From: an uncultured Pelagibacteraceae bacterium | GTDB lineage: Bacteria; Pseudomonadota; Alphaproteobacteria; Pelagibacterales; Pelagibacteraceae | Length of the DNA: 64,000 nt | NCBI GenBank assembly: GCA_902628305.1 | Contig: CACOMK010000003.1 | Location: 1 to 64,000 of the forward strand | Direction of reading: 5' to 3' | Shown: in pieces, positions 30,027-43,623 of the stretch | Layout of the letters: each line of letters starts with the position of its first letter | Position numbering within the stretch: the first letter of the stretch is position 1 | Translations under genes and position numbers: made by a program | The notes under the pieces: model-generated | What the model was told of the DNA's origin: nothing | What the model saw: the letters and a program-made list of their open reading frames with translations, nothing else | Database searches by the model: none

Positions 30027-32092
30027 TGTCAGATTTTTTTTTGGAATTATTCAGTGAGGAAATACCCTCAAATCTTCAACAAAATTTAAGGGAAGATTTA
30101 CTTAAAAAATTTAATGAGTTATTTTTTGAAAGATCAATTTTATTTAAAAGAAGCTCATCATACTCAACACCAAATAGATTAGTTCTATTGTTTGAAGGTG
30201 TACAAAAAAACGTTGTAATAAAATCTGAGGAGATAAAAGGTCCAAATATTAAGTCACCAGAGGAAGCATTGGAGGGGTTTGTTAGATCAAATAAAATCCT
30301 AATAAAAGATCTCTACCAAAAAAAAAATGATAAAGGGGAATTTTATTATTTTAAGACAAAGTCAAAAAAATTGTACACACATGAATTATTAGAAAAATCT
30401 ATACCAATATTATTGAATAAAATTCAATGGAAAAAATCAATGTTTTGGGGAACTTTTGACCTAAATTGGGGGAGACCATTAAAGTCAATTCTAGCTGTAT
30501 TTGACAAAAAAAAATTAAATTTTAATTTTCATCATCTAACATCTTCAAACTCTACTTTTATCGATAAAGAATTTGAAGAAAACAAAAAGTCGTTCTTAGA
30601 ATTTAAAAAATATAAAAGTTTTTTCAAAAAAATTGGCATCATTATAGATCATCATGAAAGAAAAAAATTAATAGAAAAAAAATTTAATAATATATTAAAA
30701 AATAAAAATTTAAATATTCAAGATAATCCTAAGCTACTTAATGAGGTTGTAGATTTAACAGATCAACCTAATATCCTCCTATGTGAATTTGATAAGAAAT
30801 TTTTAAATATTCCTAAAGAAATATTAATTATTACGATGCAATATCATCAAAAATATTTTCCAATATTTGATAATAAAGGAAATATTACAAACGAATTTTT
30901 AGTAGTTGCAAATAAGAAAGATAAAAAGGGATTAATTAAATTGGGAAATGAAAGAGTAGTTGAAGCAAGATTAAGTGATGCAGAATTTTTTTGGAAAAAA
31001 GATAAATCTCAAAATATGGTTAAAAAAGTTACTGATTTAAAATCTATGAATTATTTTAAAGGACTAGGAAGCTATTTCGATAAAGCTCAAAGAATGAGAA
31101 AATTGGGTGGAATGATATCCGATGAACTTTTGATTAGTAAGGAAAAAGTTGAGTTATCAGCATCAATTTGTAAAGTCGATTTATTATCAGAGTTAGTAGG
31201 TGAATTCCCAGAACTCCAGGGTTTGATGGGAGGTTATTTTGCTAATGCGCAAGGTTTTGATAAAGATTTGGTGTTGGCCATCAGTGAGCAATATTTACCT
31301 ACAGGTTCTGGTTCGAGAGTCCCCAAAAAACCCTTTAGCATAGCATTATCATTAGCTGATAAGATAGATACTTTAGTTGGTTTTTTTGGTTTGAATCAAA
31401 AGCCAACAAGTTCTAAAGATCCATATGGTTTAAGGAGATTAGCAGTAGGGATAATAAGAATAATAGTTGAAAATAAAAAAGATTTCAAAATAAAAGATTT
31501 AATTAATTATTCCTCAAACCTATATTTTGATCAGGGTTTAAAAATTGAAAATAAATTTTTACAAAAGGAATTATCAGATTTTTTAATGGAAAGATTAAAA
31601 CATCATATGAGGGAAGAAAATATTAGAAATGATATTATTCAAGCCTCAACCAGTTCTTTTAATTTAGATCAATCAGTTATTATTTTTAATAAGGCCAAAC
31701 ATTTAAATAAAATAATTGATAAACAAGATGGCTTGGATATTATTGCAAGCTATAAACGAGCTTCAAACATTTTAGATAGTCAATTTAAAAATGATAATAT
31801 AGAATTATCTAATACAACTGATCCTAGTATATTTAAAACTGAGTTAGAAAAAAACCTATTTAAAAAAATTAGTGAATTAAGGAAATATTTTTCGAATATA
31901 AATAAAGATGAAAATTATGTTCAAACATTGGACAATTTAGCTAGCGTGAAAAGAGAAGTTTTCGATTTTTTTGATAATGTAATTGTAAACGAGGGTGATC
32001 CGGTCATAAAGAAAAATAGGCTAGAACTAATCCAAATGATGTGTAAAACGTTCAACAATTATGTTAATTTTTCTCTAATCTCCCATAAATGA
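30026..32092 (+). CDS. glyS: Glycyl-tRNA synthetase beta subunit (start moved to ATG 30026, TAATG overlap)
   Basis: LELFSEEIPSNL; follows glyQ. Confidence 0.95.
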   Translation: MSDFFLELFSEEIPSNLQQNLREDLLKKFNELFFERSILFKRSSSYSTPNRLVLLFEGVQKNVVIKSEEIKGPNIKSPEEALEGFVRSNKILIKDLYQKKNDKGEFYYFKTKSKKLYTHELLEKSIPILLNKIQWKKSMFWGTFDLNWGRPLKSILAVFDKKKLNFNFHHLTSSNSTFIDKEFEENKKSFLEFKKYKSFFKKIGIIIDHHERKKLIEKKFNNILKNKNLNIQDNPKLLNEVVDLTDQPNILLCEFDKKFLNIPKEILIITMQYHQKYFPIFDNKGNITNEFLVVANKKDKKGLIKLGNERVVEARLSDAEFFWKKDKSQNMVKKVTDLKSMNYFKGLGSYFDKAQRMRKLGGMISDELLISKEKVELSASICKVDLLSELVGEFPELQGLMGGYFANAQGFDKDLVLAISEQYLPTGSGSRVPKKPFSIALSLADKIDTLVGFFGLNQKPTSSKDPYGLRRLAVGIIRIIVENKKDFKIKDLINYSSNLYFDQGLKIENKFLQKELSDFLMERLKHHMREENIRNDIIQASTSSFNLDQSVIIFNKAKHLNKIIDKQDGLDIIASYKRASNILDSQFKNDNIELSNTTDPSIFKTELEKNLFKKISELRKYFSNINKDENYVQTLDNLASVKREVFDFFDNVIVNEGDPVIKKNRLELIQMMCKTFNNYVNFSLISHK

Positions 32093-34749
32093 AAAAACTT
32101 ATTTTAAACTTTAATTCTAAGGACATTAAAAAAATTAAAAATCCTAAAAACTTTTTAGGAGGTAAAGGTGCTAATCTTTCTGAAATGGGAAGAATGGGTC
32201 TTCCAGTGCCTCCTGGCTTTACAATATCAACAAAAGTTTGCGAAATTTTTTATAAGAATAAAAAAAAATTAAATAAAAATCTAATTTCTCTTATTAAAAC
32301 AGAATTAAAAATAATTGAAAAAAATGTCTCAAAAAAATTTGGAGACTTAAAAAATCCACTTTTGTTATCTGTGCGATCTGGAGCAAGAGTATCTATGCCA
32401 GGCATGATGGATACAATTTTAAATCTTGGTCTAAACGATAAAACAGTCAAAGCTTTAGCGATTAAAACTTTAAATGGAAGATTTGCTAAAGATAGTTATA
32501 GACGTTTCATTCAAATGTACGGTAATGTGGTAATGGGTGTCGAAGGTTATCATTTTGAGGAATTAATTGAAAATTATAAACTTACTAAAGGTGTCTTATT
32601 AGATACAGATTTAGATGAAAGCGATTGGGATGGATTAATTGAAGACTTTAAAAGAACAATAAGAGAAAAGGCCAAAAAAGATTTTCCTCAAGATGTCTAT
32701 GAACAATTACTAGGAGCAGTAAGTGCTGTATTTTTATCATGGGAAAGTAGTAGAGCAAAAGTTTATAGAAAACTAAATCAAATCCCAGCAGAATGGGGAA
32801 CTGCTGTAAATGTTCAATCAATGGTGTTTGGAAATATGGGTGATGATTGTGCAACAGGAGTTGTCTTTACAAGAAATCCATCAGACGGATCAAAAGAAAT
32901 ATATGGTGAGTACTTAATTAATGCACAAGGCGAAGATGTTGTGGCGGGTACAAGGACACCTCAATACATCACAAAAAAAGCTAAACGAGATGCTAAAGTA
33001 AAAGAATTATCAATGGAAGAATCTATGCCAAAAGTCTTTAAAGAACTTCAAAAAATTTTGAAAAAATTAGAAAAGCATTACAAAGATATGCAAGACGTAG
33101 AGTTTACGGTAGAATGTAATAAACTATGGATGCTTCAAACAAGATCTGGAAAAAGAACAGCAAAATCAGCTGTCAAAATTGCAGTTGATATGGTAAAAGA
33201 AAAATTAATTTCAAAACGAGAATCTGTATTAAGAATTGACCCAAACTCTTTGGACACACTTTTGCACCCTACTCTAGATGAAAAAAGTACAATTAATGTA
33301 ATAGCAACTGGATTGCCAGCATCGCCAGGAGCAGCCAGTGGAAAAGTTGTATTTACATCAGAAGATGCTGAAAGACTAACTGCAATGATGCAAGATACAA
33401 TTTTGGTAAGAGTAGAAACCTCTCCAGAAGATATTCAAGGTATGCATGCTGCTAAAGGGATTTTGACTGCAAGAGGAGGAATGACAAGTCATGCAGCTGT
33501 TGTTGCAAGAGGTATGGGTAGACCATGTGTATCAGGATCAAGTGAAATTGACATAAACTACGAAAATAAATCTTTTAAAACTTCTTCAATGGAAATTAAA
33601 GAGGGAGACATAATTACTATAGATGGCTCAACCGGGAGAATTATTGCTGGAAGTGTTTCAACTGTTAAACCAGAAATATCTGGTGATTTTTCAAAGTTAA
33701 TGTCTTGGGCTGATAGTTTTAGAAAACTAAAAGTAAGAACAAATTCTGAGACCCCAAAAGATACTAGGATAGCAAAAGATTTTGGTGCAGAGGGCATTGG
33801 TCTATGTAGAACTGAACATATGTTTTTTGATGAAGAACGAATTTTGTCTGTAAGAGAAATGATATTATCAAAAACAAAAGAAGACAGAGCAAAAGCATTA
33901 GAAAAATTGTTGCCGCATCAAAGAAAAGATTTCATTGATATTTTTAAAATTATGAGCGGATTACCAGTCACAGTAAGATTATTAGACCCTCCATTACACG
34001 AATTTTTACCTCATACAGATAAGGAAATTAATGAGGTTGCTAATATAGTTAATCTTCCAGTTAAAGAGGTTTTATCTAGAATTGAAGAACTTCACGAGCA
34101 AAATCCTATGCTGGGTCACAGAGGTTGTCGTCTGGGAATATCTTTTCCTGAAATTTACGAAATGCAATGTAAAGCAATATTTGAAGCTTTAGCACATCTT
34201 CAAAAAAGTAAAATTAAATCTGCATTTCCTGAAATAATGATACCTTTGGTGTCAACAGAGGTTGAGATAAAAATAATGAAAGATTTAGTAATTAGAACTG
34301 CACGCGAAGTTCAACAAGAGCATAAATTGAAAATAGGATTTTTAGTAGGTACGATGATTGAATTACCTAGAGCTGCAATAAAGGCAAAGGAAATTGCTAA
34401 GCATGCAGAATTCTTTAGTTTTGGAACTAATGATTTAACTCAGACTACTTTTGGAATTAGTAGAGATGATAGTGGAAAATTTTTAAATGACTATTTAGAA
34501 AACAAAATATTTTCTGTAGATCCTTTTGTTTCAATAGATGAAGGAGTTTCAGATTTAGTAGAAATAGCAGTAGAAAGAGGAAGAAAACAAAACAAAAATC
34601 TTAAATTAGGTATTTGTGGAGAGCACGGAGGAGATCCTCAAAGCATATCTTTTTGTTCTAAAGCAGGATTGAATTATGTTTCTTGTTCGCCTTATAGGGT
34701 CCCAGTCGCTAGGTTAGCTGCTGCTCAAGCTGAACTTAAAAAAAATTAA
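32089..34749 (+). CDS. ppdK: Pyruvate, phosphate dikinase
   Basis: LGGKGANLSEM, GGMTSHAAVVARGMG, C-terminal PEP-utilising domain. Confidence 0.97.
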   Translation: MKKLILNFNSKDIKKIKNPKNFLGGKGANLSEMGRMGLPVPPGFTISTKVCEIFYKNKKKLNKNLISLIKTELKIIEKNVSKKFGDLKNPLLLSVRSGARVSMPGMMDTILNLGLNDKTVKALAIKTLNGRFAKDSYRRFIQMYGNVVMGVEGYHFEELIENYKLTKGVLLDTDLDESDWDGLIEDFKRTIREKAKKDFPQDVYEQLLGAVSAVFLSWESSRAKVYRKLNQIPAEWGTAVNVQSMVFGNMGDDCATGVVFTRNPSDGSKEIYGEYLINAQGEDVVAGTRTPQYITKKAKRDAKVKELSMEESMPKVFKELQKILKKLEKHYKDMQDVEFTVECNKLWMLQTRSGKRTAKSAVKIAVDMVKEKLISKRESVLRIDPNSLDTLLHPTLDEKSTINVIATGLPASPGAASGKVVFTSEDAERLTAMMQDTILVRVETSPEDIQGMHAAKGILTARGGMTSHAAVVARGMGRPCVSGSSEIDINYENKSFKTSSMEIKEGDIITIDGSTGRIIAGSVSTVKPEISGDFSKLMSWADSFRKLKVRTNSETPKDTRIAKDFGAEGIGLCRTEHMFFDEERILSVREMILSKTKEDRAKALEKLLPHQRKDFIDIFKIMSGLPVTVRLLDPPLHEFLPHTDKEINEVANIVNLPVKEVLSRIEELHEQNPMLGHRGCRLGISFPEIYEMQCKAIFEALAHLQKSKIKSAFPEIMIPLVSTEVEIKIMKDLVIRTAREVQQEHKLKIGFLVGTMIELPRAAIKAKEIAKHAEFFSFGTNDLTQTTFGISRDDSGKFLNDYLENKIFSVDPFVSIDEGVSDLVEIAVERGRKQNKNLKLGICGEHGGDPQSISFCSKAGLNYVSCSPYRVPVARLAAAQAELKKN

Positions 34750-34762
34750 ATCAATTATGCAA

Positions 34763-34783
34763 GCGTTCTGTTGCCAGGTGCCC
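34763..34783 (+). repeat. att-like direct repeat copy 1 (distal, 21 bp match): gcgttctgttgccaggtgccc
   Basis: Identical to the core of the 37151 and 43324 copies; 13 nt after the ppdK stop. Confidence 0.9.
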
Positions 34784-34804
34784 TTAATTTTGTTTTAATT
34801 TAGT

Positions 34805-36094
34805 ATGAGTTTAAAAAAATATTACAACATTGCGAAAATAAAACTCTTTCCTATAACAAGAAGTTTGACAGGTAATGGGGTAAAAAAAACACTAAATATT
34901 ATACAAAAAGAACTTCCTAAACTCAAAATTAAAAGATTTAAATCAGGGACAAAAGTTTTTGATTGGAATATTCCAGAAGAATGGAATGTAAAAGATGCTT
35001 ATGTGATTGATAAATATAATAATAAAATTATTGATTTTAAAAAAAATAACTTACATTTAGTTGGATACTCAACTCCTATTAAAAAAAATATTACAAAAAG
35101 AGAATTATTTAAAAATTTATATTTTTTAAAAGATCAACCTAAAGCGATACCATATATAACTTCTTATTATAAAAGAAGATGGGGTTTTTGTATTTCTTAT
35201 AATGAGTATAAAATTTTAGATAAGCGATATTCTTTAAATGATAAATTTAATGTGGTTATTAATTCAAATTTAAACAAAAGAGGTAATTTAAATTATGGTG
35301 AATTAATTTTAAAAGGTAAATCCAAAAAGGAAATTTTAATTTCTACATATATTTGTCATCCCTCAATGGCAAACAATGAATTATCTGGACCTATAGTGTC
35401 TATGGGATTAATAAATTATTTTAAGAATAAAAAATTAAACAAAACTTTAAGATTTGTTTTTATTCCAGAAACAATTGGTTCAATATCTTATTTGAGTAGA
35501 AATCTTACATATTTAAAAGAGAATGTTATTGGGGGATATAACCTTTCTTGTATTGGTGACGAAAGGCAACACTCTTGTATGTTTTCTAAATATCAAAATT
35601 CACCATCTGACGAAGCGGTTATTGAAGCATATAAATTACTAAAAATAAAAAATTATAAAGTTTATCCATTTTTAAACAGAGGTTCAGATGAAAGACAATA
35701 TAATTCTCCTGGTATTGATTTAAAAATTTCTTCAATTTTTAGAACAAAATATGGTGAATACCCTGAATATCATACTTCATTAGATAATTTTAATCTTGTT
35801 ACATTAAAAGGTTGTGTTGGAGGATTTAATGTTGCTAGAAAATCAATAGAAATATTATTAGAAAGAATTTATCCTAAATGTAAAATAATGTGTGAACCAC
35901 AAATGGGTAAAAGAGGTCTCTATTCAACCTTATCTACTAAAAATGAAAAAAAATTAACCAGAAGTTATATGAATTTTCTTCAATATGCTGATGGAACAAA
36001 TTCTTTAGAAAAGATCTCTAATTTAATTAAATTAGAATTAAATTCTGTTAAAAAAATTAATAGTATTTTATTTAAAAACAATCTACTAGATTAA
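34805..36094 (+). CDS. DUF4910/DUF2172-type aminopeptidase-like protein with C-terminal winged-helix-like region
   Basis: STYICHPSMANNELSGP, RGSDERQYNSPGIDL, EYPEYHTSLDNF; recognised from family memory, not searched. Confidence 0.75.
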   Translation: MSLKKYYNIAKIKLFPITRSLTGNGVKKTLNIIQKELPKLKIKRFKSGTKVFDWNIPEEWNVKDAYVIDKYNNKIIDFKKNNLHLVGYSTPIKKNITKRELFKNLYFLKDQPKAIPYITSYYKRRWGFCISYNEYKILDKRYSLNDKFNVVINSNLNKRGNLNYGELILKGKSKKEILISTYICHPSMANNELSGPIVSMGLINYFKNKKLNKTLRFVFIPETIGSISYLSRNLTYLKENVIGGYNLSCIGDERQHSCMFSKYQNSPSDEAVIEAYKLLKIKNYKVYPFLNRGSDERQYNSPGIDLKISSIFRTKYGEYPEYHTSLDNFNLVTLKGCVGGFNVARKSIEILLERIYPKCKIMCEPQMGKRGLYSTLSTKNEKKLTRSYMNFLQYADGTNSLEKISNLIKLELNSVKKINSILFKNNLLD

Positions 36095-36097
36095 TTT

Positions 36098-36964
36098 ATG
36101 AAAAAAACTAAAGCTTTTCAATTTTTTAACAAAGATACTTCAGTTAAAGAATATTCTGATATGTACAAAAAATTAAGATTAGATATTAGGTATCCTGCCA
36201 ATGTCAAAAGAGAGCAGATTTTTGTAAAACTTTTAAAAAAACATAAACCTAAAAAAATTATAGATGCTGGTTGTGGTGCTGGAATGCCGCTTATTGATAT
36301 TAAAAAGAAAGGTTTTAATATTATTGGTTACGATAAAGCAAAAAATATGGTTATAGAAGCAAAAGAAAATCTTAAAAAAAATAGATTGTCTCCTGATTTA
36401 GTGTTTTATGATGATTTTGAAAATCCTAAAAAAATTAAAAATAATTCTGTAGATTGTATAATTGGTATGGGCGCTTTTTATTATGCTAAAAATGTTAATA
36501 AAACACTTTTAAATCAGAAAAAAAAATTAAAAAAAAATGGTAGGTTAATATTTTCATTAAGAAATAAGTTATTTGATCTAATCACCCTAAATAATTACAC
36601 TAAAAAATTCTTGGATGAGATTTATGAAGTTAAAGATTTAAAAAAAGAATGGAAAAATAAATATAAAAATTTAACAAAGAATTATACTGATAGAAAAAAA
36701 ATAAAGTTAGAAAAAAACATCGATGAAGCAGGTGTTCACAATCACATTCCTCACAACCCCTTAACTATTTCTGATGAAATGGCAAAATTAGGCTTGTCTG
36801 TAGAAGGTATATATTTTTATCACTTTCACGCGTTCCCACCAGTGTTTGAAGTACTTGATAAAAATTATTTTAGAAAAATTTCTTGGAAAATAGACAATCC
36901 ACTTGATTGGAGGGGCTTTTTCTTAGCATCTACTTTTGTTATTGATTGTAAAAAAATCTTTTAA
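36098..36964 (+). CDS. Class I SAM-dependent methyltransferase
   Basis: IIDAGCGAGMPLIDIKKKGFNIIGYD motif I/II. Confidence 0.85.
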   Translation: MKKTKAFQFFNKDTSVKEYSDMYKKLRLDIRYPANVKREQIFVKLLKKHKPKKIIDAGCGAGMPLIDIKKKGFNIIGYDKAKNMVIEAKENLKKNRLSPDLVFYDDFENPKKIKNNSVDCIIGMGAFYYAKNVNKTLLNQKKKLKKNGRLIFSLRNKLFDLITLNNYTKKFLDEIYEVKDLKKEWKNKYKNLTKNYTDRKKIKLEKNIDEAGVHNHIPHNPLTISDEMAKLGLSVEGIYFYHFHAFPPVFEVLDKNYFRKISWKIDNPLDWRGFFLASTFVIDCKKIF

Positions 36965-37035
36965 ACCCTACTTTTCACATATCATCTAATCAAGTTTTCA
37001 AATATATTGACATTTTTCTAATATTTTTATCAAGG

Positions 37036-37125
37036 ATGAATTCTAAATTAATAATTTATAACAAAAGTGATTACTTAAAAATTGTTTTAAAACTCCGTAG
37101 AGAGGTTTTTACAAAAAATTATTGA
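37036..37125 (+). pseudogene. Possible truncated 5' fragment of a CDS ending next to the att repeat
   Basis: aagg-ATG then MNSKLIIYNKSDYLKIVLKLRREVFTKNY*, 25 bp before repeat copy 2; not in the supplied ORF track because it is short. Confidence 0.3.
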
Positions 37126-37150
37126 TATTATTAGATAATATTAAAAAAGA

Positions 37151-37175
37151 GGGGCGTTCTGTTGCCAGGTGCCCC
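37151..37175 (+). repeat. att-like direct repeat copy 2 (25 bp): ggggcgttctgttgccaggtgcccc
   Basis: Exact 25-bp match to copy 3 at 43324. Confidence 0.95.
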
Positions 37176-37583
37176 GAACTTTGTTTCTTGAATCCTGAAA
37201 AACAGTAATCAATCAGGGTGGATCATATCATATGGGTTGTAGGGGTCAAATTAGGAACATCACGACCAAATGTAGACTCAAAAATGAGTCGGGATAAGAC
37301 TCCTGTCGGTCGCTCCTGTTGGAGCTCCCTCCATGGCTCCCCAAGGGATCCTAGTTAAATCCAAGAATTGCAATCCCGTATAATATCGACTCCACCTTTT
37401 ACATAGAAAGGGATCCTACTGCTCTAGGTGTATAGCAAGTCTTTTACAGTCAAACCCATTAAAAACATTTTTAGAAACAAAAGCTTAGCCCAAAAAATTT
37501 TACAAAATTTTGAAACATTTTGACTCAAAATGGACTGGAGCTGCAGGGTGTTTGGCTAATGCAATAAGCATCTTGGATCATGA

Positions 37584-37820
37584 AACTTAACTTGAATTTC
37601 GAGGTAATTTGAATGCATCAGTTACCTTGAATTCCCTTAAATCTTTACTTTGAAAAAAATGAGTCTTTATGCAAATAAGTGAGTCTTTTCAACGTAACTT
37701 AACGTAATATTCAGAGCTACATACGAGTTATTCGAGGTAAGTAAAGGTAACTCCAGGGGGTCTTTTGGAGCTGCTCAAAACTTTTTCAGATTAAGTTTTC
37801 AAGTTAAATAAAGTTAAGTT
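37584..37820. repeat. Cluster of short iteron-like repeats (AACTTAA/TTAAGTT) in noncoding DNA
   Basis: AACTTAA at 37584 and 37696, TTAAGTT at 37791 and 37814; also tcgaggtaa at about 37599 and 37732. Confidence 0.45.
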
Positions 37821-38023
37821 TTGGGGGAATGGCAAGTATTGGTACTTATTAAAACTTTCTGAATTAGTCTCCCGAACAAAAATTCACAGTTACCACTCCC
37901 ATATCTTTCTTACATTGCAACACAGTAAAATCAACAACTCGTCAAATTTTTTTCCATGTTGCAACGGGGATAAATTTTTTTGACAAGTTTGCAATTTAGC
38001 CATGTAGCCGTGTAAGAGAATCA

Positions 38024-40225
38024 TCATTTCGATTTTTTCTTTTTTGTCTTTTTAGTTTTTTTGGTTTTTGATCCAGGGCTCTTGGTACTAGCTGCAGGGA
38101 TCTTGTCCACTGCAACTCTGTGATCTGTAAAGAATGGTTTATAAAGTTTACTGATCTCAGCTGCCGTTTTATTTTTAAGCTCATCATGATTTCTGATTAT
38201 CCAAACTGTAGCTCTTTGAGCAACCTGAGGTATTGGAACTTGTTTCACACATTTACCACCAATTAAGGCTAATGCATTTGCAACTTCTCTTTCTCTGGTA
38301 ACTTTTAATTTTGCTTCTCTTTTTAAGAAATCAAATAACTCTAATGTTGTTACCATAGGTCTATCAAATGGGTGTGATCCCTGAGCAAATTGTTCTTTGA
38401 TATAATCATTGAGAGGTCTATCAGCCATATCGGACATTTCATCTCGATACTTTGTCCAGGGCGCAGGTGCCAATGGGTTAAACTTACTTAAATTTCTATC
38501 AAGTAAATCTGCCAAAACTCCTGCAGGTAAATCGCCAAACAATCTTTGATTATGAAACTCATCAAGCAGCTGCTCATTTCTTTTTGCTTCACTAAAATAA
38601 ACAAAGTACCTAACCTCATTTTTTGGAATAGGGAATGCATCTCTGTAATTGGTATTGATCCAATAATTTGTGACTGTATCTTGCTCAGAGTATTCCTTAT
38701 ACAGCTGCCTTACTCCAATGCTGCCCTCAGTAATAATTGTTTTAAGAGTATTTATAAGCTGTGCTTTTTCACTCCAACTCCCTGAGCTCTTTGCTTCATC
38801 AATTAAAACAGTTTGGTAATTTAATAGATAATTTTTACCTTTATCTAATGCTTCAGCTAATTCAATCTTTCGGGTGTTCTTATGTCCTAAGATATCTCTG
38901 TGCAGGTCAAACAATGATCCTTTCCCTAATTGAAATTCATCTGATTGCATAATGATTGCATTCCTAATTTTTACACCAGGATTTTGCATAGGAAATGAAT
39001 ACCAATCTAAGAAATAATTTCTTTCTTTTTCATGTGGGATTATATGTTCCAACATTGCATAAAAAATATCAGTATCAGCTTTAGGATCTGGCTGCAGCTC
39101 ATTCTTCTCATAGACATTAATCATTATCTTTTTATCTACATGCACAAATCTTTTTGGGTCATTTGGTTTATAAGTAAAATCCACACAGACTTTGCTATCA
39201 GGGTGTTTTTTCCAAAACAGTAACGGGGTGTATTTTGCATCTCTAAAATATTTTGCATATTTCACATCGATAGCTTCTGCATCGTACATTTCCTTATCTT
39301 CCAGATCATAGTATTTTTTTTGTTTCATCATGTATGCAATTCGATTAACAAATTCATGAGTAAACTTTGGCAGCTCTGATCTTCCAGTTATTGCATATAA
39401 GATATTTTTAAAATTATCTTTTTGCTTATCATTCCAACCTAAAGATTTTGCTAATGTAGGTAACCCAACTATCTCTTTGTTTGGATCATCATTTTTATAG
39501 ACATGTTTTACTTTGGCTAATCTTTCTTTAGTGTCATCTCTTGCAAGATTACTAACAACCTCAATCAAGTGTAATGTATCAGCTTCCTCAACTTTGTGGT
39601 GCCATAGTGTTGCTGCTACTTCCCAGATATATTTGTTCCTTTCTGCTTTTGCATAATTCCTAAGAATTACCCCTGCAGCTGCTAACATTGCCGTGGATTT
39701 ATATAAAGAATCATAAGTAGTTTCGCCTATAGTTTCATACTCATTCCATTCAACATGTTCATTTTCAGGATACTTACCTGAGCACATAGAATAATGATCA
39801 TAAGCTCTTAACTCGACTAGGGTCTTTTTTGCAACATCTTCATCTTCAAATATAAAAGCTTTGCGAGTATGTTTTTTATTAAGATCTAAAACTTTATATA
39901 ACCAATGAGATGCAGGTGTACTTTCCCTCCCATATTTCATTTTTGTTGGTGGCATAAACTCATGAGCAAGAGCTCTCGTTTCTGCACAGTCAAGATCTAG
40001 GTCTAAGATGTTACCCTCGCCAGTAATGATATGATAATTTGCAAATGGTTTTATTTCCTCAGTAGATTTAATTATTTTTTTTCTTCGCTTATCCCATGAG
40101 ATATCTACTTGCTTTGTTCCATAATCATATTCAAAGATTGTTGCATTTTCTCTGAGTAGAACTGCTAGGGCATCTTTATTTAGTATTGCAGCTTTATTGT
40201 TGATTTTAGGGGCTTCTGAGCTCAT
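38024..40225 (-). CDS. Primase-polymerase/SF3 helicase-like replication protein (DUF5906-like C-terminal half)
   Basis: N-terminal prim-pol-like GNILDLDLDCAETRAL...GRESTPASHWLYKV; C-terminal ATPase-like GKGSLFD...NYQTVLIDEAKSSGSWSEKAQLINTLKTIITEGSIGVRQLYKE; ...YWINTNYRDAFPI. Confidence 0.75.
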   Translation of the reverse strand: MSSEAPKINNKAAILNKDALAVLLRENATIFEYDYGTKQVDISWDKRRKKIIKSTEEIKPFANYHIITGEGNILDLDLDCAETRALAHEFMPPTKMKYGRESTPASHWLYKVLDLNKKHTRKAFIFEDEDVAKKTLVELRAYDHYSMCSGKYPENEHVEWNEYETIGETTYDSLYKSTAMLAAAGVILRNYAKAERNKYIWEVAATLWHHKVEEADTLHLIEVVSNLARDDTKERLAKVKHVYKNDDPNKEIVGLPTLAKSLGWNDKQKDNFKNILYAITGRSELPKFTHEFVNRIAYMMKQKKYYDLEDKEMYDAEAIDVKYAKYFRDAKYTPLLFWKKHPDSKVCVDFTYKPNDPKRFVHVDKKIMINVYEKNELQPDPKADTDIFYAMLEHIIPHEKERNYFLDWYSFPMQNPGVKIRNAIIMQSDEFQLGKGSLFDLHRDILGHKNTRKIELAEALDKGKNYLLNYQTVLIDEAKSSGSWSEKAQLINTLKTIITEGSIGVRQLYKEYSEQDTVTNYWINTNYRDAFPIPKNEVRYFVYFSEAKRNEQLLDEFHNQRLFGDLPAGVLADLLDRNLSKFNPLAPAPWTKYRDEMSDMADRPLNDYIKEQFAQGSHPFDRPMVTTLELFDFLKREAKLKVTREREVANALALIGGKCVKQVPIPQVAQRATVWIIRNHDELKNKTAAEISKLYKPFFTDHRVAVDKIPAASTKSPGSKTKKTKKTKKKKSK

Positions 40226-40662
40226 TAATCGTCCCTCCCCATACTTAGCCTTAAAAGTGTTCGCACAACTTCTTTTTCAGCTTCGGTCAACTGTGAAAGA
40301 GCTTTACCTGGTGCAACTGAATCTAAATCTAGTTTTTTAATTCTAGGTTTTTCTTTTTGCTTCAAGTAATCAGATAAGAATATAACCTTACCACCTCCAG
40401 CCATTTGCAAAGGTATATTTCTTAAATAGCTTTTAGGTTTTGATTTTAACCAATCAGTAAATGTTTGACCTTTTGTTTTCTCTTTTTCAAAGTCAACCCG
40501 TAACTGTGAGATAATATCTGATTCAAGATCAAAGATTATATCAGCCTCATCTTTTGCTAACTGCTGCAGCTGCTCTTTTTTGATAGGTTTATTTTTGTTC
40601 TCTACATTCCCACCTTTTGCATAAATATTAAATGTGGGATCTTTTATTGTTCTAATTGACAT
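40225..40662 (-). CDS. Hypothetical protein, element-encoded
   Basis: 145 aa ORF, start/stop contact with primase ORF. Confidence 0.7.
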   Translation of the reverse strand: MSIRTIKDPTFNIYAKGGNVENKNKPIKKEQLQQLAKDEADIIFDLESDIISQLRVDFEKEKTKGQTFTDWLKSKPKSYLRNIPLQMAGGGKVIFLSDYLKQKEKPRIKKLDLDSVAPGKALSQLTEAEKEVVRTLLRLSMGRDD

Positions 40663-40987
40663 GTCTAAATACCTCCAATCTCTTTTGTAATTTTTTGATT
40701 TGTTCGTCTTGATCTGACAGCATCTTTTGAGCTGTAGTTAGGAAACCAATTAGACTTTCCTCAGATACTTTGTTTCTTTCCTCTAATGATGCAACAGCTT
40801 TCGCAAGATTTTCAATTACCTTAACTGACTTTCTTGCAAGTAGTGACATTGATTTATAATCAATCTGATCGTGTTGACATACTGCAATCTTCCTGCTCAA
40901 CTTATTTCTTTTGAGTAGAGCTTCTCTGATTGTTTTGGATTTAGGATATCTTTCTGTTAAATGTTTTTTCGGGATCCTAGGCATCAT
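40652..40987 (-). CDS. Hypothetical basic/coiled-coil protein, element-encoded
   Basis: 111 aa, overlaps neighbours by about 10 bp in operon fashion. Confidence 0.65.
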   Translation of the reverse strand: MMPRIPKKHLTERYPKSKTIREALLKRNKLSRKIAVCQHDQIDYKSMSLLARKSVKVIENLAKAVASLEERNKVSEESLIGFLTTAQKMLSDQDEQIKKLQKRLEVFRHVN

Positions 40988-41426
40988 CTACCCCCAAAAT
41001 ATATGCAAGACCTGCTAACTGTTTTTTTGAACGTCTTGGTGGTTTTATCTCTTCAACAGGAATATCTTCGATAGCACCATAAGTATGAGTGATTGTATTC
41101 TCAAATGGATTTATTTTAGGTAATGCTGCAATGTCAATTTTTACTGCAGCCCCAGTATCAGGTTTCTTGCTGAATGGCTCTCTACGTGGCTCTGAGGGAT
41201 TCTTTTTTTTATATTTTCGCTCAATATCTCTGAATTGCTTCTTTTCCTGATTATTAGCAACAGACTTTAAAAGCTTATAATTATCCTGAGCTGTAAATTT
41301 TTTCTTTAATTCTTGCTCAGTATAAATCCCGTCATCAGCTGCATTGTAGATGTAATTTGTACCGTCATACTTATTCATTGCTTCAGTGATTGATTGATTA
41401 AATGTCTTTGTCTTTTTCATTATCAA
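40977..41426 (-). CDS. Hypothetical protein, element-encoded
   Basis: 149 aa, overlapping co-directional ORF. Confidence 0.65.
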   Translation of the reverse strand: MIMKKTKTFNQSITEAMNKYDGTNYIYNAADDGIYTEQELKKKFTAQDNYKLLKSVANNQEKKQFRDIERKYKKKNPSEPRREPFSKKPDTGAAVKIDIAALPKINPFENTITHTYGAIEDIPVEEIKPPRRSKKQLAGLAYILGVDDA

Positions 41427-41847
41427 CCTCCTTAACTAATTCCAAAATTCTAGGATCTTCGCTGCCTCTAAAGTATGCAGCTGCGTCCCCACTTAAATCA
41501 AACACCTCATTGAATTCTCTATCCATTTCTTTGTAGAGCTCATAAGCTTCATCTTGATTTAATTTTTTAGGCTTATATTTTTTTCTTAAATCTTTCTTAT
41601 TTGTTGCAGGGTTTGGATCATGCTTCATGATAAACTCGTTATGTCTATCCACATTGAAATTCCAGTTTTCCTGCTCTTTTGTTAGAGCTGCTTCTCTCTT
41701 AAATAGATTGCTTAATTTAAGCCAAAGATTAAGAGCTGCATCACTTGCTTTTACTGAAGATCTATAAGCATCTTTTAATGTATCTTTAAATGCATCTTCT
41801 ATTAATAGGTTTGAGTTGTGTCCTATATCACGTTTGTTTTTTTCCAT
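41398..41847 (-). CDS. Hypothetical protein, element-encoded
   Basis: 149 aa, MEKNKRDIGHNSNLLIEDAFKDTLKDAY...; overlapping co-directional ORF. Confidence 0.65.
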   Translation of the reverse strand: MEKNKRDIGHNSNLLIEDAFKDTLKDAYRSSVKASDAALNLWLKLSNLFKREAALTKEQENWNFNVDRHNEFIMKHDPNPATNKKDLRKKYKPKKLNQDEAYELYKEMDREFNEVFDLSGDAAAYFRGSEDPRILELVKEVDNEKDKDI

Positions 41848-42038
41848 TTATTACTCGCTGATTGTTTGGGAGGGTTACAGAGTGCAGCTGCACCCTCCAC
41901 ATTGATTTCATCAGCAATGGACTTTAGATGAATATTGTAGGTGTAAGAATTGGGAATATAATTATCGTTGCAACGATTAACCCAAATATTTCTGTGTATG
42001 TATTTCTCACTATTTATTTTTATCATTATAAACTCCAT
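41823..42038 (-). CDS. Hypothetical small protein, element-encoded
   Basis: 71 aa, first ORF of the run after the gap following int. Confidence 0.45.
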   Translation of the reverse strand: MEFIMIKINSEKYIHRNIWVNRCNDNYIPNSYTYNIHLKSIADEINVEGAAALCNPPKQSASNKWKKTNVI

Positions 42039-42225
42039 TACCTTAACTGCACTTATCTACGATGTTTCTTGATTATTTTTTCTTTGGTAAGATAGGAATT
42101 TATTTAAGCTCGTACTATCAACGAACAATACTTATATACAGATCAATCATGACTCTTTCAAGGCACATAATTGAGCTCAGCATATGCAAGTTTGGAAACC
42201 ATTAACCTGTAGGACTCTCTGTATA

Positions 42226-43257
42226 TTATCCTATAGATTTTTCTATTTTTTTAACTTTTTCAATTAAGTCTTCAGGTTTAATTCTTGCGTATCTTTGCAA
42301 CTGTTTCCAATCTTTATGTCCACTTAAAACTGACACCTCTGGAATTGTCATTCCACTTAATAATGCATTCGTACAGAAACAAGCTCTTAGATCATGAAAT
42401 CTAAAGTTACTAATAGCAGCTCTTCTACATGCAATATTGAAATGCTTTCTTAATCTTCTTGCTAAGATATTAAATAATGTATCCCCGAACCTGTGTCTTT
42501 TTAAAATTTCAAATGCTGTATCTGATAGAGGTATTGTTCTATCTTCCCCGTTCTTAGTGTCCAAGAATGTACAGAGTCTTTTTTCAAAATCTACATGATC
42601 TCTTTTGAGTTTTAATATTTCGCCCTGTCTTGCTCCAGTCTCATAAGCAAAGATAACTATATCTGATAGCACTGGCATATTGCCCATTAAACATGCTTCA
42701 AGTAACTTTTCATACTCAGCTTTTGTAAGTACACGATCCCTTGCATTTTTAACTTTATGCATCGTGACTAATTCAAATGGATTATACGGAGGCATTGTTA
42801 TTCCCCAAACTCTTTTTGCAGTGTTCCAAACATTTTGCAACATATGCAAATATTTATTTGTTGTAGCAGGAGCTCTAACTAGATCCGATTCTTTTTTAAA
42901 CTTATATAAATGATGAGCTTTCAACTGTGTAATTGTATAATTTGAAACTTCATTCCTAACTAATAGATTTATCTTTGCAGTCTCTTCCTTAACACCCTTT
43001 TTGTTGATAGTGATTTCATCTCTGTATTTTTCAAGCAAAGCTCTCACTGTAGTTTTAGATGCTTTAGTTAAATCTTCAAATTGACCTGTTTCAATTTCAT
43101 GCTCAATCTTCCTGCCCCACTTCTTACCAATCTTTAGGTCATCAAAACTTTTAGATAATCTTGGATAACCTTTACGTTGGATTTCAATTAACCACTTTCC
43201 TGATTTTTTTCTTCGATAGTACATTTCAATCACTTTCTGCAAAATAATCACAACCAC
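42226..43257 (-). CDS. int: Tyrosine recombinase/phage-type integrase
   Basis: TGARQGEILKL (Arg I), FRFHDLRACF (HxxR), LSGHKDWKQLQRYARI (H/Tyr) catalytic motifs; adjacent to att repeat. Confidence 0.95.
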   Translation of the reverse strand: MVVIILQKVIEMYYRRKKSGKWLIEIQRKGYPRLSKSFDDLKIGKKWGRKIEHEIETGQFEDLTKASKTTVRALLEKYRDEITINKKGVKEETAKINLLVRNEVSNYTITQLKAHHLYKFKKESDLVRAPATTNKYLHMLQNVWNTAKRVWGITMPPYNPFELVTMHKVKNARDRVLTKAEYEKLLEACLMGNMPVLSDIVIFAYETGARQGEILKLKRDHVDFEKRLCTFLDTKNGEDRTIPLSDTAFEILKRHRFGDTLFNILARRLRKHFNIACRRAAISNFRFHDLRACFCTNALLSGMTIPEVSVLSGHKDWKQLQRYARIKPEDLIEKVKKIEKSIG

Positions 43258-43323
43258 AGCCCGACCAAATTGCTTAACTGTTTAATTAACGATTGATTTG
43301 CTTAACGTTTCTTGAAAAGTTTA

Positions 43324-43348
43324 GGGGCGTTCTGTTGCCAGGTGCCCC
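43324..43348 (+). repeat. att-like direct repeat copy 3, forming the 3' end of the tmRNA coding piece
   Basis: 25-bp exact match to 37151-37175; contiguous with the ssrA coding piece on the minus strand. Confidence 0.95.
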
Positions 43349-43490
43349 GGACCCCGTTTGCTTAATTAACTAAGTTAATTAGGCAGCAAGTGCGTAACTT
43401 TCGTTAGCAATTATAATTTAGCCCGTTACGGTGGAACAATCCCGAACGAAAGAATAGCCTTTAGTCACCCGTCGAATCTAGTTCACCCCC
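43324..43490 (-). ncRNA. ssrA: Two-piece (permuted) tmRNA, coding piece, tag ANESYALAA
   Basis: Minus strand GGGGGTGAACTAGATTCGACGGGTGACTAAAGG..., then GCT AAC GAA AGT TAC GCA CTT GCT GCC TAA at 43408-43379, post-stop hairpin TAATTAAC-TTA-GTTAATTA. 3' end approximate. Confidence 0.93.
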
Positions 43491-43501
43491 ATAAGTTGTA
43501 A

Positions 43502-43595
43502 TGGTGGAGGTGGTGGGTACTGCCCCCACGTCCGAAATGGTTATTACGAAATTCGTTTATCGTCGTAGTTGGAAAACCAACTTTATTAATATAAA
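43502..43595 (-). ncRNA. ssrA: Two-piece (permuted) tmRNA, acceptor piece (5' end approximate)
   Basis: Minus strand ...GGACGTGGGGGCAGTACCCACCACCTCCACCA with encoded CCA; CACCTCC pairs with 5' GGGGGTG of the coding piece; 11-nt intervening segment 43491-43501. Confidence 0.9.
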
Positions 43596-43623
43596 AGTAA
43601 TTACAACAGATTCAATAACAATC

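Follow-up and report, generated by a model that had tools for sequence, protein, structure and literature searches.

Core attachment-site repeats at ssrA and candidate integrase-less cassettes in SAR11 (Pelagibacteraceae)

A 64-kb stretch of DNA from an uncultured Pelagibacteraceae (SAR11) bacterium was analysed (assembly GCA_902628305.1, contig CACOMK010000003.1, positions 1 to 64,000; referred to as the window). A short sequence occurs three times in the window, between ppdK (pyruvate phosphate dikinase) and ssrA, the gene of the transfer-messenger RNA (tmRNA). Sequence comparison supports the reading that these repeats are copies of a core attachment site (att), which arose through site-specific insertion into a SAR11 chromosome at the ssrA 3' end. 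Probably, the array holds a satellite-like integrase unit and an older passenger, and integrase-less cassettes found across the genus are mobilised in trans.

The core repeat and its sites

The repeat GCGTTCTGTTGCCAGGTGCCC (21 bp) has exact copies at 34763-34783, 37154-37174 and 43327-43347, each on the plus strand. No further matches were found in the window at up to 3 mismatches, and none occurred in 100 dinucleotide shuffles of the window. The original prediction had described three direct copies in the same orientation, with 25 bp shared by the second and third, and both points were confirmed. The 25-mer GGGGCGTTCTGTTGCCAGGTGCCCC is common to copies 2 (37151-37175) and 3 (43324-43348), and the shared stretch in fact reaches 27 bp when AGGGG..CCCCG is counted. 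Copy 1 is flanked by AAGCG..GCCCTT; its outer GGGG is gone, and only 21 bp are in common with the other two copies.

Copy 3 is the 3' terminal hairpin (GGGGCACCTGGCAACAGAACGCCCC) of a permuted alphaproteobacterial tmRNA gene on the minus strand. The Rfam alpha_tmRNA covariance model matched this gene at 43320-43619 (minus strand) with 225 bits. Copy 2 is a partial match to the same model (37148-37261), whose 27.6 bits are below the family gathering score of 50. Copy 1 follows 13 nt after the ppdK stop at 34749, exactly as predicted. The features of the site are as follows.

32089..34749, plus strand: ppdK (pyruvate phosphate dikinase), conserved chromosomal flank of the hotspot, from its open reading frame (ORF) and synteny in relatives
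34763..34783, plus strand: core copy 1 (att1), 21 bp, at the far island edge, without the outer GGGG and without an arm of the element type
37151..37175, plus strand: core copy 2 (att2), distal boundary of the integrase element
43324..43348, plus strand: core copy 3 (att3), identical to the ssrA 3' terminal hairpin
43320..43619, minus strand: ssrA, permuted two-piece tmRNA gene and putative integration target (Rfam alpha_tmRNA)

Synteny is conserved in relatives, where glyQ-glyS-ppdK is followed by variable DNA and then by ssrA-thyX-mrp-hflKC-degP. The original prediction had called for a relative with ppdK directly before ssrA, and such an empty site was found (L044, genome G024), with the ppdK end ~24 bp from the ssrA end. 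Tandem arrays with 2-5 core copies at ssrA recur across the genus, and the core is single-copy in many genomes. Because the core equals the ssrA 3' hairpin and the ppdK/ssrA site is empty in L044, the copies are read as att sites made by integration. Copy 1 does form the far island edge, as originally proposed, since other relatives (e.g. L018, L114, L158, and L163) hold a core copy at the same position directly behind ppdK. The proposal of serial integration at one site held in part: the att copies appear to have been made at the ssrA 3' end, but a second autonomous element bounded by att1 and att2 is unsupported. Dispersal of the repeat elsewhere in the genome had been named as a sign against insertion boundaries. 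The assembly of the window contains no other copy (913 kb, 69.7% complete), but relatives have the core at other gene ends, there as integration sites.

In these relatives, the core was found directly behind rnhA, pnp, an M23-peptidase-like gene, a methionine-synthase-like gene, and a small ORF (names given by sequence inspection, with no family search). At the thrC/rnhA site, L033 contains one core and no cassette, L021 contains core-cassette-core, and L275 and L277 contain no core. The flanks of L021 and L033 are 88-92% identical, the cassette is precisely absent in L033, and one 33-bp core match is shared. At these gene ends the core behaves like additional sites of integration, of which some are empty and others hold a cassette. 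Behind rnhA, several cassette-less genomes (among L275-L304) have degenerate core-like hairpins, which are possibly decayed scars.

Cassettes, arm repeats and the integrase element

The core with an element-side arm was identified in 65 of the 399 congeneric genomes. The one-genome-per-species contigs contained 101 stretches with core and arm; those listed are all from Pelagibacteraceae/Pelagibacterales, and many are from single-cell genomes. From about 96 loci, 88 core-to-core segments were parsed, with a median length of 1.27 kb (range 0.15-7.5 kb); cassettes are often 0.4-4 kb. A strict arm filter was passed by 48 of the 88 segments, in which 85 of the 96 ORFs (at least 80 amino acids) point away from the 5' arm. 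An integrase-family profile search of the cassette loci identified no integrase ORF and no integrase remnants.

At each end of a cassette there are paired direct repeats of 7 bp with a spacing of 11 bp. The pair lies at exactly 11 bp in 131 distinct 5' arms, where its distance to the core is constant and its sequence cassette-specific. The mean best 8-mer match of the 5' arms is 7.06-7.25 of 8 for arm types A, B, and C, and falls to ~3.6-4.5 when another offset is taken; 19 arms without a clear type have only a weak 11-bp pair (mean 5.1). The same pair recurs in the 3' arms, roughly between -67 and -82. Within a cassette, the repeats of the two ends match at 11.90/14 (n=91, selected on a good 5' pair, the 3' match not being a criterion), compared with 8.76±0.17 after permutation (maximum of 500: 9.2). 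Permutation within arm types gave 9.55±0.19 (maximum of 2000: 10.2), and the observed value was reached by 0/2000 permutations for types A and C and by 3/2000 for type B; related cassettes are counted as independent here, which overstates the significance, and the within-type test and the 38 distinct motifs limit this effect.

A four-site architecture is also present in integrase-bearing relatives: TGCGACC occurs four times in G290, TCGTCAT four times in G362, GGACACA three times with one variant in G407, and GACGCCA-like sites four times in G413. One integrase-less cassette (L135) shares arm stretches of 87-91% identity with the integrase element of G413. In the window, two candidate pairs were located.

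37264..37281, plus strand: candidate P' arm-type sites, GACCAAA (37264-37270) and GACTCAA (37275-37281), 11 bp apart, weak alone
43252..43269, plus strand: candidate P arm-type sites, AACCACA (43252-43258) and GACCAAA (43263-43269), 11 bp apart

The same arm repeats are thus found on both sides of the core in the cassettes and the integrase elements; they are weak in the window element itself, and absent in a tRNA-Met element. They look like lambda-type P and P' arm sites, which are the expected anatomy of a heterobivalent attP.

The cargo of the cassettes is diverse, compact and mostly unique. Among the encoded products are GIY-YIG proteins, MrcB_N/NOV_C proteins, type I restriction-modification systems, HNH and PD-(D/E)XK nucleases, and proteins that are trypsin-like or exported. 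Identical types of cargo recur at different sites with 93-94% DNA identity (e.g. L023/L154 and L014/L156), and the arm types differ too. Type I restriction-modification genes lie in core-bounded segments beside ssrA in L117, where the set is complete, and in L047. In the cassettes of L015, L113, L124, L130, L140, L144, and L156, many genes open with a near-identical signal peptide (MKKLLGIVVLGLL...), after which the sequences are unrelated, a pattern that resembles recombination between leaders and mature parts.

The ssrA-proximal unit (37151-43348) is 6.2 kb (6173 bp). Its ORFs all lie on the minus strand and comprise those of a tyrosine integrase and of a DUF5906/phage-type primase, with four further small ones.

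42226..43257, minus strand: tyrosine integrase (PF00589, 6.7e-21), true start probably the ATG at 43224
41398..41847, minus strand: small ORF, 149 amino acids, from the ORF list
40977..41426, minus strand: small ORF, 149 amino acids, from the ORF list
40652..40987, minus strand: small ORF, 111 amino acids, 34% identical in L074
40225..40662, minus strand: small ORF, 145 amino acids, 64% identical in L073 and 50% in L076
38024..40225, minus strand: DUF5906/phage-type primase-helicase (PF19263, 1.5e-7; phrog_1156 DNA primase, 8e-25)
37176..38023, no strand: non-coding arm region of the integrase element, from sequence, with a possible role as replication origin

The integrase gene is intact, lies ~67 bp from copy 3, and adjoins the tmRNA 3' end. 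The invariant catalytic residues R210/H288/R291/Y323 are present. The predicted structure (mean predicted local distance difference test 86.7, predicted template modelling score 0.61) has a fold that matches the Tn1549 and lambda integrases. Residues 13-56 are predicted to form a domain of three strands and a helix, which is arm-binding-like, as expected for a protein that binds arm sites. No AlpA was found among the four small ORFs by Pfam or PHROGs matches. The non-coding region at 37176-38023 is unusually long for SAR11 and has repeated AACTTAA/AACGTAA-like motifs; it may be the replication origin of the primase element.

A 6.4-kb element in G290 (L074) contains a primase with 60% identity and a co-linear small-ORF set, but it is bounded by 62-nt tRNA-Asn repeats and has a different integrase. 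Further related elements are bounded by tRNA-Arg, tRNA-Met, and tRNA-Glu repeats. The closest integrase relative (52%) is in G413, likewise at ssrA, and window-like integrases were found in 2/399 congeneric genomes. The integrase relative in G407 was also checked for a location at ssrA, and was placed at tRNA-Glu instead. Because the kindred gene sets are at tRNA genes and the nearest integrase is at ssrA, the element is read as a member of a family of small SAR11 integrase elements with switched target genes. Eight core-only matches in viral contigs were rejected as satellites; these contigs have phage-like genes and a tmRNA gene of their own. In all eight (L166-L173), this tmRNA gene ends in the identical core, and a phage-borne ssrA could serve as a target.

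The distal segment (34763-37151) contains three ORFs.

34805..36094, plus strand: DUF4910/DUF2172 protein with a winged helix-turn-helix, distal passenger segment
36098..36964, plus strand: S-adenosylmethionine-dependent methyltransferase, distal passenger segment
37036..37125, plus strand: 29-codon ORF stub just before copy 2, read from the sequence, probably the start of a truncated gene

This segment is an att-bounded, integrase-less unit, distal to the integrase element in the tandem array, which fits a passenger of the cis-mobilizable element (CIME) type. No integrase was found among its ORFs, and no genes of integrative and conjugative elements (ICE) or integrative and mobilizable elements (IME) were detected. 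Because of the missing integrase, the ORF stub, and the lack of a recognisable arm beside copy 1 or at the right end, the segment is better described as an older, decayed, arm-less passenger, rather than a second autonomous element.

Proposed mechanism and alternatives

In the integrase of the window, the core-binding and catalytic domains would contact the core, and the N-terminal domain would contact the arm repeats. The enzyme would splice the element in so that the ssrA 3' end stays intact, and the older arm-less passenger would be left between copy 1 and copy 2. The locus would be a single instance of a system found across the genus, in which integrase-less cassettes with the same core and full P/P' arms accumulate at ssrA and several other gene ends. 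Rare integrase-bearing elements probably mobilise these cassettes in trans, as the parsimonious mechanism, and the cassette-specific arm repeats would decide which integrase can act. Transfer between cells probably takes place in phage particles. We infer the recombination reaction, the action in trans, and the cell-to-cell transfer from sequence; the main reason for action in trans is that integrase-less cassettes keep the heterobivalent, lambda-like attP anatomy. On balance, we lean towards an integron-like cassette economy in SAR11 with lambda-type chemistry. Matching satellite integrases would move cassettes in trans among ssrA and a handful of gene ends, and would spread restriction systems and other small cargo.

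Several observations weigh against this mechanism. The arm pair of the window element is imperfect: GACCAAA occurs in both arms, and 1/60 shuffles was as good. By inspection, no arm repeats were found at either end of the distal segment. The integrase element at tRNA-Met in G396 has no such repeat pairs, and integrases matching most arm specificities were not found. The strict arm filter was failed by 40 of the 88 parsed segments, and many core-bounded segments may be decayed or of another kind. The viral contigs contained 0 relatives of the integrase or primase and 0 core-plus-arm matches, and no free or encapsidated form was found. In the assembled sequence, which came without reads, no recombination product (circle junction or same-strain resolved site) was seen.

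The cassettes might instead be CIME-like remnants of autonomous elements after integrase deletion, moving only in cis by accretion with an integrase element. The order in the window, with a decayed unit, an integrase unit, and the target, corresponds to the CIME-IME-target arrays in which the most decayed unit is the most distal (PMC7563491), and many segments have no arms. However, 91 cassettes keep both ends with fixed spacing and matched, co-varying repeats, and no integrase remnants were detected in the cassette loci. The compact and mostly unique cargo, and its presence at different sites with different arm types, also argue against such decay, which is considered unlikely as a general explanation.

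Another explanation is that the repeat pairs are operators or promoters, which regulate the cassette genes and have no part in recombination. Downstream of the 5' pair, many cassettes seem to have a -10-like box and then a start codon with almost no leader, and a double role is conceivable. The matching pair at the opposite cassette end makes a promoter-only reading less likely. The same pairs are also found in integrase-bearing elements, and the nearest gene of the G413 element points towards the arm, not away from it. A purely regulatory role is therefore quite improbable.

Homing is less probable still, in which cassette endonucleases (GIY-YIG, HNH, and others) would cut the ssrA end and cassettes would spread by repair without an integrase. 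GIY-YIG was found in 5/128 cassette proteins, and HNH_2, T5orf172, and PD-(D/E)XK nucleases are also present; these nucleases are also in keeping with a defence cargo. Homing endonucleases were rejected as a general mobility factor, since most cassettes have no recognised nuclease, and an integrase is indicated by the matched arm repeats and by integrase-bearing relatives whose ends are the same. That the core is a dispersed ancestral or convergent terminator hairpin unrelated to insertion is hardly credible: the hairpin is followed by T-rich DNA just past stop codons at the secondary sites, but the empty and occupied alleles at thrC/rnhA (L033 and L021) differ exactly by a core-bounded insert, the core is single-copy in many genomes, and conserved element arms abut it.

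A Xer-like host recombinase was also considered as the agent and rejected, as it has no recognisable arm-binding domain and is encoded elsewhere in the genome. This candidate, a conserved tyrosine recombinase of ~317 amino acids (L305-L309) with one copy per genome in most sampled relatives, scored below the XerC/XerD model cut-offs.

SAR11, one of the most abundant groups of bacteria, is commonly called streamlined and poor in mobile elements. If integrase-driven mobilisation in trans is true, a genus-wide, sequence-defined cassette system would explain part of the SAR11 flexible gene pool. The readable compatibility repeats would make it testable which integrase moves which cassette. The analysis suggests that streamlined SAR11 genomes may swap genes in an integron-like manner.

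Comparison with known systems

Integrons and clusters of attC sites lacking integron-integrases (CALIN) form arrays of promiscuous small cassettes without an integrase of their own. The SAR11 arrays likewise consist of small, promiscuous, integrase-less cassettes; they differ by a double-stranded core with paired arm sites and by the absence of an integron integrase. The 25-bp core is a short hairpin. The window integrase scored 41 bits against the integrase_gron (IntI) model, below the cut-off of 265, and does not class as an integron integrase.

The IntY islands of Pseudomonas are tmRNA islands with a tyrosine integrase (PMC12595487). Both systems encode a tyrosine integrase, are inserted immediately at the tmRNA 3' end, show short direct repeats and lack transfer genes of their own. 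Defence-type cargo is a further shared feature, which on the SAR11 side is found in related units. The window also shows the marks of a tmRNA island, with an adjoining intact integrase, 27-bp tmRNA 3'-end repeats, and the empty site in L044. However, the SAR11 tmRNA is permuted and two-piece, the element is 6.2 kb, the tandem units are mostly integrase-less, and the core is also used at several protein-gene ends in relatives.

In CIME-IME-target arrays, decay is greatest in the units most remote from the target gene (PMC7563491). The SAR11 array resembles these CIME/ICE/IME accretion arrays in its tandem att-bounded units, including integrase-less ones, with the most decayed unit farthest from the target. 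It differs in that no conjugation or mobilisation genes were seen, and in that the att arms of the cassettes are complete at both ends and co-vary.

The integrase element is like the PICMI phage satellites of Vibrio (PMC10803314) in its size of ~6 kb, its integrase, DUF5906 primase, and few small ORFs, and its direct-repeat boundaries. The likeness is one of gene content; no AlpA was found, the target is ssrA or a tRNA gene rather than fis, and there is no demonstrated helper phage. As far as tycheposons are quoted in PMC10872708 (tRNA, cargo, 4-200 kb), the tyrosine recombinase and the size fit, whereas the target here is the tmRNA.

An open-access literature search, with subscription papers outside its scope, found no description of a SAR11 ssrA cassette system. 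In streamlined marine bacteria, serial cassette insertion marked by tRNA repeats has been described as additive flexible genomic islands (PMC7771536, PMC10872708). In both cases, cassettes accumulate one after another at an RNA gene, and directly repeated copies of the gene's 3' end mark them. The SAR11 system differs in its target ssrA, in its defined ends, arm repeats, and multiple targets, and in its identified integrase family.

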